Assembly: GCA_012730105.1 (NCBI GenBank)
Contig: JAAYBJ010000207.1
Span: 1 to 40,886, forward strand
Length of the DNA stretch: 40,886 nucleotides
From: Candidatus Hydrogenedentota bacterium
Lineage (GTDB): Bacteria; Hydrogenedentota; Hydrogenedentia; Hydrogenedentales; CAITNO01
Reading direction: 5' to 3'
Shown here piece after piece: positions 35,155 to 40,886 of this stretch. Position numbers and translations under genes: made by a program. The notes below the pieces were generated by a model. It was not told the DNA's origin. It saw nothing but the letters and a program-made list of their open reading frames with translations, and did no database searches. Numbering within the stretch: the first letter of the stretch is position 1; each line of letters opens with the position of its first letter.

Positions 35155-37047
35155 ATGCCAAAACAGACAGCCCTGACTATAACTGCCGTACTTCTTCTTT
35201 GTTGTTTCGCCACCGCTTCGGAGACGGAAGACCAGGTGCGCGCCCGCATCGGCGATGCGGCAGATCATCCCCGACTCTTGATGTCCGCCGCGGATGACGT
35301 CCGGATACGGGGTGAAATTGCCGCCCATGAAACGAAGCAGTCACTTTTTGCGCTTATCCGTAAGCAGGCCGACAGCATCCTTGACGAAACGCCGGTCATA
35401 CGCAAAAAGTCGGGGAAACGCCTGTTATCGGTGTCCCGCGAGGCCTTGCGGCGCATTTTGTCCCTCTGTTTCGTCTACCGTGTCACCGGGGAATCCGACT
35501 ATGCCGCACGCGCGGTGCGGGAAATAGAAGCCGTAACTGCCTTTTTGGATTGGAACCCGTCCCACTTCCTCGATGTGGCGGAAATGACCGCCGCCCTGGC
35601 CATCGGCTATGACTGGCTGCTCCCGCTACTCACGGAGGAACAGGAAGCCTCCATCCGTACGGCAATTATCGAGAAAGGGATTGCGCCCTCTTTCAACGGC
35701 CACGACAGTTGGGCCTTCCGTGACAATAACTGGAACCAGGTGTGTCATGCCGGGCTTATGATGGGCGCCCTGGCGGTGTTGGAACATGACCCCGAGCTCG
35801 CCGTGCGGGTGATTGCCCGGGCACTCGACGGCCTGCCCCATGCCATGAAGTCCTACCAGCCCGATGGCGTCTATCCCGAGGGACCGAGCTATTGGGAATA
35901 CGGCACGACCTATAACGTCCTTGGCATTGCCGCACTGGAGTCCGCGCTTGCCACTGATTTCGGGCTGGTCGATTTCCCAGGATTCCATGAAACCGGCGCG
36001 TTCCCCTTGTATATGACCGGGCCCACGGGCAACCATTTCACCTTCAGCGATTGCGGTTCGCGCAACCGGTGTTTTCCGGCGGTGTACTGGTTCGCCCGTC
36101 GGCTGGATGACCCGGGCCTGTTCCACCTTGACCACCCCTGGCTGGAAAAAGCCTTACGCGGCGAGGCCTCGGCGGAAAGCCGTTTCCTGCCCCTGCTCCT
36201 GCTCTGGTGGGACGGCCGGCCATCCGTTACACCAAGCCAGCCCCTGCACTGGAAAGGGGAAGGAAAAAATCCCGTGACCATACACCGAACATCGTGGACG
36301 GATCCCAACGCGGTGTTCCTTGCGGTCAAAGGCGGCACCCCCTCCGCGAATCACGGGCATATGGATATCGGCTCCTTCATTCTGGAGGCCGACGACACCC
36401 GTTGGGCCGTGGATATCATGGGCCGGGGCTATGGCGACCTCGAGGCACGAGGGTTGAATCTCTGGAACATGTCCCAGGACTCCGACCGCTGGCGCATCTA
36501 CCGCTATCACAACAGCAGCCACAATACGCTTACCGTCAATAAACAGGGGCAGCGGGTCAAGGGGCGTGGTGACATCAAGGCCTTTTCAGCGGATCCCGCT
36601 AACGCCTTTACGATACTGGATCTGAAATCCGTATATGAGGGGCAACTCTCGGAAGCCGCGCGCGGATTCCGGCTGCTTCCGGATGGACGGGTACTGGTAC
36701 AGGATGAGATCACCGCTGGGGACACCAAGGCGCGCGTGTGCTGGGCCATGACCACCCCCGCGGAAATGACCAAAAATAAATCAGGCAGCGCCGTGCTGAC
36801 TCATAACGGACAGCGCCTGTTTATCGATGTACTTTCCCCCAGTCGGGCCAGGCTCCAATATTTCTCCACGGAACCCCGTGAAGACTGGGATCTTGCCACC
36901 CCGGATATCCGCCAGGTCGGGTTCCATGTGAAACTTTCCAAGGGCGAAACGGAAACCCTGGCGGTCCTGCTGACACCCGGAAGCCGGGAAACTGCCCGCG
37001 AGGCACCCCCGGAACTATGCCCCCTTGCCAAATGGGGTAAGCCGTAG
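35155..37047 (+). CDS. Secreted heparinase II/III-like polysaccharide lyase
   Basis: A 630-residue protein with a signal peptide (about 1-21, ending ATAS). Residues 35-330 form the helical toroid typical of alginate and heparinoid lyases, including DNNWNQVCHAGLMMGALA near 190-207 and GVYPEGPSYWEYGT. The rest is beta-rich, with ANHGHMDIGSFILEADDTRW near 398-417, the conserved heparinase II/III block. It probably cuts a uronic-acid polymer in the periplasm or outside. The polysaccharide lyase family number and substrate cannot be given by eye. It stands alone, with no SusC/D or sulfatase genes nearby. Confidence 0.88.
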   Translation: MPKQTALTITAVLLLCCFATASETEDQVRARIGDAADHPRLLMSAADDVRIRGEIAAHETKQSLFALIRKQADSILDETPVIRKKSGKRLLSVSREALRRILSLCFVYRVTGESDYAARAVREIEAVTAFLDWNPSHFLDVAEMTAALAIGYDWLLPLLTEEQEASIRTAIIEKGIAPSFNGHDSWAFRDNNWNQVCHAGLMMGALAVLEHDPELAVRVIARALDGLPHAMKSYQPDGVYPEGPSYWEYGTTYNVLGIAALESALATDFGLVDFPGFHETGAFPLYMTGPTGNHFTFSDCGSRNRCFPAVYWFARRLDDPGLFHLDHPWLEKALRGEASAESRFLPLLLLWWDGRPSVTPSQPLHWKGEGKNPVTIHRTSWTDPNAVFLAVKGGTPSANHGHMDIGSFILEADDTRWAVDIMGRGYGDLEARGLNLWNMSQDSDRWRIYRYHNSSHNTLTVNKQGQRVKGRGDIKAFSADPANAFTILDLKSVYEGQLSEAARGFRLLPDGRVLVQDEITAGDTKARVCWAMTTPAEMTKNKSGSAVLTHNGQRLFIDVLSPSRARLQYFSTEPREDWDLATPDIRQVGFHVKLSKGETETLAVLLTPGSRETAREAPPELCPLAKWGKP

Positions 37048-37623: not shown

Positions 37624-37851
37624 TCAGCCCCGCGGTTGATTTGTCAGATGTTGGGTTGTGTTGGCAAGTTTAAGAAGCGACCGCAATGCGGTGTTTACCG
37701 CTTCTGAATTTTGAAATGCTTCCGCAATATCGGGTTCAAGGACGATTATGGAGGAATTTTCCGCCAATAAACGCTTGTGATACTTGCCTCGGACAGCCTT
37801 GGAGTAGTCAAACGTATATTCGGAACGCATCTTATTTTGTCCCTTCTTCAT
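37624..37851 (-). CDS. Putative antitoxin of BrnT-type toxin
   Basis: A 75-residue protein starting MKKGQNKMRSEYTFDYSKAV. The N-terminal MRSEYxFDYSKAVRGKYHKR pattern and the following IIVLEPDIAEAFQNSEAVN segment look like the ribbon-helix-helix antitoxins found beside BrnT-type toxins. ATG 37851 has AGGAAAG 8 nt upstream and overlaps the toxin gene by 20 nt; an in-frame ATG at 37830, one base after the toxin stop, is an alternative. It would bind the toxin and the shared promoter. The antitoxin family is assigned mainly by gene pairing. Confidence 0.75.
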   Translation of the reverse strand: MKKGQNKMRSEYTFDYSKAVRGKYHKRLLAENSSIIVLEPDIAEAFQNSEAVNTALRSLLKLANTTQHLTNQPRG

Positions 37852-38110
37852 GGCGTTTTCTTTCCTGTTCAGTTGCCGGACGCGCACTGATTATCCGTAA
37901 TGTGTCTTCCCGCTCAGCATATACAACGATGCATAGACGATTCCGTGACGAATAGCCCACCGTAATAAACCGGCTCTCTTCGTCTGAATGGTCCGGATCA
38001 TCAAAGGTCGCTGAAAGCGGATCGTAAAAAACAGTAGCTGCCTCTTCAAATGATAACGCGTGTTTTCTTACGTTGCTTTTGGCTTTTCCCGGATCCCAAT
38101 CGAAATGCAT
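37832..38110 (-). CDS. brnT: BrnT family toxin
   Basis: The 92-residue protein shows the BrnT pattern throughout: FDWDPGKAKSNVRKHALSFE at the N terminus, then AATVFYDPLSATFDDPDHSDEESRF, and ending IVVYAEREDTLRIISARPAT followed by ERKRHEE. BrnT is a RelE-like ribonuclease that stops translation when free of its antitoxin. Toxin-first order is normal for this family, and the antitoxin overlaps its 3' end. All key charged and aromatic positions seem present, so it is likely functional. Confidence 0.88.
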   Translation of the reverse strand: MHFDWDPGKAKSNVRKHALSFEEAATVFYDPLSATFDDPDHSDEESRFITVGYSSRNRLCIVVYAEREDTLRIISARPATEQERKRHEEGTK

Positions 38111-38627
38111 ACCTGACTTTCAGCATTCTGCGTGATGTTTTGTTGTGAATGTCTACCACGCACTCGTTTTGGACGTGTAAAGCACCGATTTACGTTTCCC
38201 GCTATGTTACCACAAATTGACAAATAAGGCGGAATATCCGACACCATGACAGTCTTTGTAACCGTCACCCCCCCCCCCCGAGAAGGATTTAACGAGGGAA
38301 GGGGCCGATATCCCTGTTTCCGGGATACAAATAGAGTTCCTTTTACGCCTGCCCAATAAGTAACCCACGGACAAGGAACTGACCCACGTTGGCGTAACAA
38401 TGTATGCTGGCGCCTGATAATGGAAACAGAGTCTGACAACAGCCGACTTCAAAAACTGCTCATTACAAGGCCCTATCCACCACAACGCGATCATGCCTGT
38501 ATCCACTTTCTGTGTGTAACAAATTATAATAGACGCCTGTCCCCGTTAACCTTGAGCAGAGTTATATACCATTGATAGAGAACGCTTCCTAAATACACAG
38601 GCATAATTATCACTGCCAACAGCATCT
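38111..38627. other. Intergenic stretch with a C12 homopolymer
   Basis: About 520 bp upstream of brnT. It contains a run of twelve C (38268-38279) and short GTCCC-type motifs. Small open frames cross it on both strands without ribosome sites or recognisable features. The brnT promoter must be here but I cannot point to one. Confidence 0.5.
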
Positions 38628-38779
38628 TTATGCTGCACACTTCTTTAAACCTGCACGTTGTAGACTCATTTTTTTGCATAACGTGACTCCGCACAGCAAG
38701 GGTCTCTCATCGTCTTCCAGAAGCAGAAACCCAGACCGATGTTGTATTTCGGCAGTTTTATACTTTTGAGCAGCGTCTC

Positions 38780-39235
38780 GGCAAAACACGTGAGCGGTTG
38801 CGCATACTGACACCAAACGCCCCCACGGATCGTAGGTATAGGACGAGGTCACGCCGGACGTGGTCATGGTCGCCAGATGGTTCTTTATCTTTCGATTCGA
38901 TGAAAGAGACAAATGCCGGTATCGCCCCGGGAAGATACATCCCCCGGCGCTCCGCGCCACCCCCCTCGAGGGGGGACTTTGCGGAGTATGCCTTGGGTAA
39001 TATGCGGATACGAACCGTCTTATTCCACGCCCGGATATTCTCTCGGGGAATGTCCTTGCGTTACACACCCCTGATGAGCGCCCTGAAAGGTCCCCCCTCG
39101 AGGGGGGTGGCGCTTCAGCACCGGGGGATGTAAAGGCAACGTAAGTCATCCTTGCTTTCACCGTCCACGCCGGGCTGGTGGTATAGTCACCGTCCGTAAA
39201 GGGGTCATAGACCCGGCTCGTAAAACTCGCAAGCG
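38780..39235 (-). pseudogene. Decayed RHS gene remnant, interrupted by a repeat element
   Basis: On the minus strand, 39222-39139 reads RVYDPFTDGDYTTSPAWTVK and MTYVAF, phrases usual in RHS/YD-repeat proteins. After a 190-bp inverted-repeat element the frame reads HLATMTTSGVTSSYTYDPWG RL, almost identical to the intact RHS gene at 40629-40700 at both protein and DNA level (38816-38880). Past that point similarity stops and the sequence ends in an unrelated tail. The whole is open from 39371 to 38628 (247 codons), but it has no RHS core and its middle is repeat-derived, so I call it a remnant. Confidence 0.7.
38939..39130. repeat. MITE-like inverted repeat with CTCGAG palindromes
   Basis: Arms of about 37 bp face each other 190 bp apart. 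The left arm (38939-38975) runs TCCCCCGGCGCT...GCGCCACCCCCCTCGAG and the right arm (39091-39129) is its inverse with few changes. Each arm contains its own perfect palindrome CCCCCCTCGAGGGGGG or nearly so. It carries no transposase and sits inside the RHS remnant. Confidence 0.75.
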
Positions 39236-39298
39236 AGGGACTGTCCCCTGCGAGCGTAGCGAGTACGCCCCGGCGCACAAGCCGGGACTGTCCCTCGC
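39233..39298. repeat. Small inverted repeat GCGAGGGAC/GTCCCTCGC
   Basis: GCGAGGGAC at 39233-39241 and GTCCCTCGC at 39290-39298 bound a 66-bp segment with an inner stem CCCGGC...GCCGGG. Probably another copy of a dispersed intergenic element; no other copy is in this window. Confidence 0.5.
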
Positions 39299-39370
39299 GC
39301 ACCTGCGAAGGCAGAGACTTCACTATTTCCGGAGTCAAAAGCACGTCACTTTTCAAAAAATTGTCCATCA

Positions 39371-39589
39371 TTATGGCTTATTTCGTGGTCTGTCCCTGAA
39401 TTGCCCCAGATTAGTATGACATATTGGACAAATTGGATATCGAAAAACCCTGTTTTTATTATTAACTAGTATTGATATAATACAATATGGAGACGATAGA
39501 CATCTGATCAGCATTTTATAAATTTCTTCTGTTGTCCATAATCCACAAAATGGACATATATGTATATTTATTATTTTTACTCTACTCAT
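39371..39589 (-). CDS. Small protein with two CxxC motifs, downstream of RHS
   Basis: A 72-residue open frame, 136 nt after the RHS stop on the same strand. It has Cys12/Cys15 (ICPFCGLW) and Cys54/Cys57 (PICPICHTN), spaced like the two knuckles of a zinc ribbon, plus Cys30 and Cys36 between them. The two knuckles are what make chance coding unlikely. The DNA is as AT-rich as the RHS tip. In polymorphic RHS systems the gene after the tip is often the immunity protein; that role here is a guess from position. The ribosome site is weak (AAGTGG). Confidence 0.5.
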   Translation of the reverse strand: MSRVKIINIHICPFCGLWTTEEIYKMLIRCLSSPYCIISILVNNKNRVFRYPICPICHTNLGQFRDRPRNKP

Positions 39590-39725
39590 TATATGCCACT
39601 TAAATCTTTCTCTGATTTTATTTCACAAATGTAAAGTAAAACAGATTTTAGTAATCTATCCATGAGCAATATATAATTTTCAATATAGTACATCTTGTTA
39701 TTTTCAATAAGTTATCTTAAATATG

Positions 39726-40886
39726 TTACTTGCATGGAATTAAACACCATAACATAGCACCATAACCACAGCCAGCCGCTACTCCGCCTGCTGCAACTAA
39801 ACAAGTGATACAACCATCACAGCTCAAGCCAGCAAAAAAACAAGATGTGCATGGTCCGGTACAGACATCTAGATTCATACAATGCAAACAGGACTTCGCC
39901 ATTCGACCTGCACAATCTAACCAGTCTTCTCCATCTTTTCTACATGCACCATTTCTATAATCATTACACGGATCCTCATCACAATTAATAAAAAGGCCTA
40001 GGACATCAAAATTATTAATAGAATCTCCCCTTGTGTACCCATACGCATTCGGCCCATCAATCAATCCCACCGGATCAGGTGCTGTCCAGCGGTTCATACT
40101 CGGACTGTAGTAGCGATACGGGAAATAATACATCTGCGACTCAGCGTCCCAAGGCTTGCCCGTGAACTCATGGTACGGGGAATTGCCATAGACATAACTC
40201 CGTTGCCCAAAGGGTAAGTGTACGTTCTGAGACACCACGGTCTTGGACTGGTCATATCCATGGGTGCTGGTCCCCAGATGGTCATGAGCGAGGTAGGTGT
40301 AGGCCGCATTGGCGGGCACACCGCTGGCATCCAGGTCGGCCTCGGCCAGGGCGGTATGGCCGAAGGGCACGAAGAAGCGGTCAAAGCCGCTGATGCCCCA
40401 ATCCGGCGTGGTGTCTTGGTATTGGGCCAGTACGGAATAGCCCGCATCCCAGCGCCAGTAGGTCGTGTCATTACCAATGGCTTTCAGGCGCCGTTTGCCC
40501 AGGCCGTCGTAATTGTACAGCACCACGGGTGTTTCGCCCGGGAAGTTGCTGTCGATCCGCTGCAGTTTGTCCCCGAAACGATAGGTATAGGTGGCCGTGT
40601 AGCTCTGCCCGCCGATTGTGGCGCTGCGCGAGGCTAAACGTCCCCACGGATCGTAGGTATACGACGAAGTCACACCGGAGGTGGTCATGGTCGCCAACTG
40701 ATTCGCCGGGCCGTAGGTGAAGACCATGGACAGACTCGCGTGAATGCTGCGGCTGCACACCCGGAAATCATCGAATTCGAAGGGCATCACGCCGCTCACG
40801 CGCACCCGCAACGCGCTCGTAGTCGCGCCCAGGCTGGTCGTGGTCTCCAGAAGCCGTTGCACCGTATCGCCCCGTTCACACGCGAA
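39726..40886 (-). CDS. RHS repeat-associated core protein with Cys-rich C-terminal tip, 5' end outside window
   Basis: The 386 residues in the window are open to the right edge. They contain YD-repeat sequence (TSSYTYDPWGRLASRSAT, then TYTYRFGDKLQRID), the region DHLGTSTHGYDQSKTVVSQN, and the RHS core end EFTGKPWDAESQMYYFPYRY followed by YSPSMNRWTAPDPVGLIDG. RHS shells enclose a variable C-terminal tip that is often toxic to rival cells. Here the tip is about 90 residues after NNFDVLGLF and has 15 Cys, with a glycine-rich hydrophobic end. Base composition drops sharply to AT-rich in the tip. I recognise no toxin fold. A short copy of the YD region lies in the remnant at 38816-38880. Confidence 0.88.
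   Translation of the reverse strand, partial: FACERGDTVQRLLETTTSLGATTSALRVRVSGVMPFEFDDFRVCSRSIHASLSMVFTYGPANQLATMTTSGVTSSYTYDPWGRLASRSATIGGQSYTATYTYRFGDKLQRIDSNFPGETPVVLYNYDGLGKRRLKAIGNDTTYWRWDAGYSVLAQYQDTTPDWGISGFDRFFVPFGHTALAEADLDASGVPANAAYTYLAHDHLGTSTHGYDQSKTVVSQNVHLPFGQRSYVYGNSPYHEFTGKPWDAESQMYYFPYRYYSPSMNRWTAPDPVGLIDGPNAYGYTRGDSINNFDVLGLFINCDEDPCNDYRNGACRKDGEDWLDCAGRMAKSCLHCMNLDVCTGPCTSCFFAGLSCDGCITCLVAAGGVAAGCGYGAMLWCLIPCK

Follow-up and report, generated by a model that had tools for sequence, protein, structure and literature searches.

A predicted main/orphan RHS toxin locus with an exchangeable cysteine-rich tip in a Candidatus Hydrogenedentota genome

The main/orphan arrangement of rhs-CT/rhsI genes has been described in Salmonella and the Enterobacteriaceae (Koskiniemi et al., 2014; PMC3967940). 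In polymorphic toxin systems more broadly, tip and immunity gene are replaced jointly by recombination at the 3' end, and small two-helix immunity proteins such as Imm17 and Imm-CdiI are known (Zhang et al., 2012; PMC3482391); the terms 'cysteine-rich' and 'disulfide' are absent from the text of that survey as searched. Contact-dependent inhibition (CDI) provides a further point of reference in its ionophore toxins, which are five-helix bundles carried on CdiA that bear a glycine-zipper motif and insert into the target membrane (PMC11630599).

We have analysed a contig of 40,886 nucleotides from a Candidatus Hydrogenedentota bacterium (JAAYBJ010000207.1, assembly GCA_012730105.1; hereafter the window), one end of which carries the C-terminal part of an RHS gene. 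The locus resembles the enterobacterial rhs loci (PMC3967940) in having a conserved core, a variable C-terminus after a DPxGL-type motif and a small linked gene downstream, and also in having displaced core-tip-immunity modules that share core sequence. It differs from them in that the orphan modules share a leader repeat, that RHS N-termini in the genus look Sec-exported, and that the tips are Cys-rich and match no described toxins. The likeness to the surveyed polymorphic toxin cassettes (PMC3482391) lies in the joint replacement of tip and neighbour and in the two-helix proteins that accompany the nearest related tips, although the window's own 72-residue neighbour, unlike Imm17 and Imm-CdiI, is not a two-helix membrane protein. 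With the CDI ionophore toxins (PMC11630599) the likeness is one of proposed action, a small polymorphic C-terminal domain that would insert into a target membrane; in the window this is a short Cys-rich domain on an RHS protein. The features of the locus are as follows.

39993 to 40886, minus strand: C-terminal part of an RHS (YD-repeat) core, matching TIGR03696; 5' end lost at the contig end
39726 to 39992, minus strand: variable RHS tip and predicted toxin domain, 88 aa with 15 Cys
39589 to 39693, minus strand: 34-aa ORF between the tip and the 72-aa ORF, doubtful as a gene
39371 to 39589, minus strand: 72-aa ORF in the immunity slot, with CPFC, CPIC and two more Cys
39408 to 40036, minus strand: exchangeable cassette of about 629 bp, AT-rich, between the conserved core and the leader repeat
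39309 to 39407, minus strand: leader repeat of displaced RHS modules, forming the 3' border of cassettes, with copies elsewhere
38628 to 39371, minus strand: decayed orphan RHS module consisting of leader, core fragment split by a dispersed element, and remnant tip
38524 to 38694, minus strand: truncated 56-aa ORF related to a small membrane protein that is 108 aa long on contig C106

Conserved cores and the exchangeable cassette

The 386-aa RHS ORF (39726–40886, minus strand), which is cut by the contig end, matches TIGR03696 (Rhs_assc_core) with an E value of 3.9e-17 and 62.5 bits against a cut-off of 32.5; the match stops at residue 298, and the core ends with DPVGLIDG followed by NNFDVLGL, after which the Cys-rich tail begins. 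RHS cores were found at 14 places in the window's genome. The window core is 85–90% identical to those on contigs C220, C106, C70 and C42 of the same genome, and five cores of this degree of identity bear five different tips. DNA identity between the window core and other loci stops at 40036–40040, and when the cassette (39408–40036) was compared with every other RHS locus that was fetched, it matched only itself. On its far side lies the leader repeat, of which further strong copies are present on C238 (98%), C106 (96%) and C220 (90%), in each case closing a cassette that follows an RHS tip of its own, and an 82% copy heads an orphan RHS module in a genome of the same genus. The array in that genome is intact: a full RHS gene whose tip is Cys-rich precedes a 400-aa gene, after which come the leader, a core with a second Cys-rich tip, and a gene of 422 aa. 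In the window the corresponding downstream module is decayed; its remnant, including the 56-aa ORF, spans 38524–39371, and the module is 87% identical over 657 bp to a downstream remnant on C106. The 56-aa ORF itself is probably the old immunity gene of this orphan module.

The original prediction had proposed a swapped RHS tip module, and near-identical cores with different tips, a cassette that lacks homology although its borders are conserved, and the orphan module that lies downstream make this reading a well-supported one. An alternative is that the RHS surface protein is non-toxic and that its Cys-rich tail serves structure or adhesion, as might fit a tip that contains no enzyme motif and whose toxicity is itself putative; but sharp replacement of tip and neighbour on near-identical cores, with orphan modules downstream, is the pattern of proven rhs toxin loci (PMC3967940), and we consider a non-toxic end quite improbable. 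Two loci in this genome, on C223 and C49, have tips that are 94% and next genes that are 83% identical: the same tip is followed twice by the same gene, and therefore tip and neighbour travel together in this genome. A tip common to two genera, with 48% identity between the C238 and G004 copies, counts against such pairing, since nothing recognizably homologous to the gene beside it on C238 was found around it in G004.

A shift to AT-rich DNA at the tip, continuing through the next gene, had also been noted and is evident in the GC profile, which stands at 0.57 for the core, drops to 0.42 within the tip and reaches 0.28 over the next 400 bp before rising to 0.62 beyond. A drop in GC at the tip is, however, general in the phylum (present at all 48 RHS loci measured, with a median of 12 points), and because it was found at every RHS tip measured we no longer regard it as special evidence for a module in the window.

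Related full-length RHS genes, in this genome and in one relative, open with a signal-peptide-like segment, in which AxA-type sites come after a hydrophobic stretch, and for this reason the window RHS protein is predicted to be exported, probably through Sec. Two N-termini of this type were found, whereas the near-identical C-terminal cores number at least five. Several of the contigs C163, C220, C106, C70, C42, C61 and C226 of G000 stop inside an RHS gene; the repeated RHS cores broke the assembly, which does not link each tip to its main gene.

The dispersed element that interrupts the RHS remnant of the window contains inverted repeats of 46 bp (89%) at 38936–38980 and 39087–39132, has copies on C70, C106, C2, C264, C130, C23 and C309, and forms an in-frame insertion within the C70 RHS ORF. 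Elsewhere in the window are a BrnT toxin gene (PF04365, E 7e-29) and after it, in the BrnA position, an 87-aa gene that matches nothing in Pfam (37624–38110, minus strand), and a heparinase II/III-like polysaccharide lyase (PF07940, E 1e-11; 35155–37047, plus strand) with two alpha/beta hydrolase-like genes upstream.

The cysteine-rich tip and its relatives

The Cys-rich tail that had been noticed beyond a normally ending core comprises 88 residues, of which 15 (17%) are Cys, and has a hydrophobic end rich in Gly, Ala and Cys. It was said to be unlike known nuclease or deaminase tips, and indeed it had no match in Pfam, NCBIfam, PHROGs, PADLOC or PDB. Sequence matches in PDB to mS37 (E 0.05) were set aside as short CHCH-like Cys coincidences. 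Halocin C8-type peptides are likewise short and hydrophobic, with many Cys in CxxxC and CxxC pairs, and the window tip resembles them in these respects; the comparison with Pfam and NCBIfam, which gave no family match, was made with libraries that may hold no halocin model. As far as sequence comparison extends, the window tip matches no described toxin family, while the main/orphan layout is itself already known. The predicted structures of the tip and of the 72-residue protein both had a mean pLDDT of 44, too poor to interpret.

One clear relative of the tip was found, the RHS tip on C70 of the same genome. The two are 30% identical in a gapless alignment of 61 residues (BLASTP E 2e-6 as a single comparison), their score (z 5.5) was reached by none of 200 composition shuffles, and they have the identical Cys spacing CTGxCxxCx6CxxCxxCx4GGVx3C. 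A weaker match, also with 15 Cys, is the tip on contig C109 of the same-genus genome G002. Beyond these, searches for the tip and the 72-residue protein in 100 related genomes gave matches at chance level except for the C70 tip, and a profile built from the two tip sequences, applied to 68 genomes of the phylum, recovered the C70 tip and one match at 0.006 containing an internal stop. Relatives of the tip were found neither by peptide pattern nor by Cys-spacing pattern in 85,000 species, nor in viral contigs or plasmids; a looser Cys pattern did give matches in viral contigs, but on checking these were mostly low-complexity repeats and were dropped.

A census of 57 distinct RHS tips from the phylum places this tip in context. 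At least 7% Cys was found in 22 of the 57, whereas the preceding 200 core residues have a median of 0% Cys; Cys-rich tips are thus common on RHS proteins of the phylum, and that of the window is one of many. Among the 34 census tips with at least seven Cys, 28 have an odd number (one-sided binomial 1e-4, a value that ignores shared ancestry), which suggests that one Cys has a separate role. In one RHS tip of the phylum (L235; genome G030, contig C6) we noted a phospholipase A2 active-site motif, CCFGHDLC, with an E value of 0.0036 against Pfam PLA2G12 that falls below the cut-off. Phospholipase A2 with this motif is a secreted, envelope-directed, disulfide-based enzyme.

What the Cys residues do can be read in two ways. 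The tip might bind metal in the cytoplasm through Zn or Fe-S knuckles, for example to act on nucleic acids as a binding effector, and the CPxC protein might be a partner that binds metal in a similar way, given the CxxC pairs in both proteins and given that 15 Cys would leave one unpaired, as would the odd counts of most Cys-rich tips in the census; the hydrophobic Gly/Ala/Cys-rich end of the tip, the signal-like N-terminus of related RHS proteins and the occurrence in the phylum of a tip with a phospholipase A2 motif and hence a disulfide-type fold, albeit below Pfam's cut-off, tell against it, and we think it unlikely. Our best guess for the tip is instead a putative disulfide-rich, membrane-active toxin, which is made likelier by the Cys-free cores, by the signal-like RHS N-terminus and by the membrane proteins encoded beside the two nearest tips, those on C70 and on contig C109 of G002, each of which is followed by a protein of 50–60 residues with two predicted helices. 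We considered whether a membrane neighbour might mark Cys-rich tips in general, but over the phylum this was not clear, a neighbour with two or more helices accompanying 10 of 20 Cys-rich tips and 11 of 34 others.

The small gene in the immunity slot

A small gene with two CxxC motifs had been noted after the tip, and is indeed present at 39371–39589 (CPFC and CPIC). The encoded protein has a net charge of +8 and no transmembrane segment by hydropathy, and no homologue of it was found in Pfam, NCBIfam, 100 related genomes, viral contigs or plasmids. It contains two CPxC motifs, and its matches to zinc-ribbon profiles are weak and below threshold (best E 0.011, 15.7 bits against a cut-off of 29). 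When the AT-rich stretch was subjected to 1000 dinucleotide shuffles, an ORF at least as long arose in 11 and two CxxC in one open stretch in 9; since its length and its double CxxC are thus rare by chance (about 1% each), and since GC is depleted at the third codon position (0.32/0.40/0.19 by position) as in coding sequence, the 72-aa ORF is probably a real gene. The 34-aa ORF, which overlaps it at a shared stop/start (TAATG), has a base composition by codon position that is not coding-like.

That this gene encodes the immunity protein, as the original prediction had it, is a different matter. An immunity role can be argued from position, as other cassettes hold a neighbour gene in the same place between tip and leader repeat. 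We give a working immunity protein, putative as it is, an even chance, and a remnant or bystander a distinctly smaller one. The 72-aa ORF may instead be something other than the immunity gene, if the joining of leader repeat and cassette removed or shortened the true antidote and left a decaying orphan locus. The final 12 or so codons of the ORF fall in the leader repeat, so that the native C-terminus of the protein may be missing; 136 bp separate the RHS stop from the start of the ORF, a distance that for most census neighbours is no more than about 50 bp; decay is plain to see in the next module downstream; and the closest tips are accompanied by two-helix membrane proteins. Against such a loss, the ORF exceeds chance length and has a coding-like composition, and a 139-aa membrane gene on C220 also stops within the repeat yet looks intact. 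We regard loss of the antidote as possible, though not the favoured account. The absence from the 72-residue protein of the membrane helices seen beside the closest tips does, nevertheless, count against the explanation that we prefer.

Proposed mechanism and significance

Taken as a whole, the locus is in our view rather more probably than otherwise a main/orphan RHS polymorphic-toxin locus, with a disulfide-rich tip that would damage envelopes and a 72-residue CPxC protein that would be its protector or a remnant. Our working model is that a cage-forming RHS core, predicted to be exported through Sec, bears an interchangeable C-terminal effector, here the disulfide-rich hydrophobic domain of 88 residues. 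Tip and neighbour would arrive jointly by recombination, for which the conserved core and the leader of the downstream orphan modules would provide the two borders. The released tip would most likely fold through disulfides outside the cytoplasm and harm competing cells at their envelope, probably through membrane insertion, which we infer to be its likeliest action given its hydrophobic Gly/Ala/Cys end. The CPxC protein in the immunity slot would most likely protect the producer, if it is not what is left of a protecting gene.

The same may hold more widely, because Cys-rich tips on Cys-free cores, signal-like N-termini and the tip with a phospholipase A2 motif together suggest extracytoplasmic, disulfide-based folding of the phylum's tips and an attack on the envelope. 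A bolder version, to which we attach little weight, is that Sec-exported RHS proteins of the phylum carry many disulfide-rich, membrane-active mini-toxins with odd Cys counts, that of the window being neutralized by a small zinc-ribbon protein and not by a membrane protein. To our knowledge, neutralization of a disulfide-rich mini-toxin by a zinc ribbon is a chemistry that has not been described for RHS systems.

Taken by itself, the locus in the window adds only modestly to this picture, as a further tip that has no match and whose partner is putative, but the census provides about twenty tip/neighbour pairs as a test set. RHS tips that have been described in detail are mostly enzymes acting in the cytoplasm. 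A phylum in which short Cys-rich RHS tips recur would point to an envelope target and to a different folding route.
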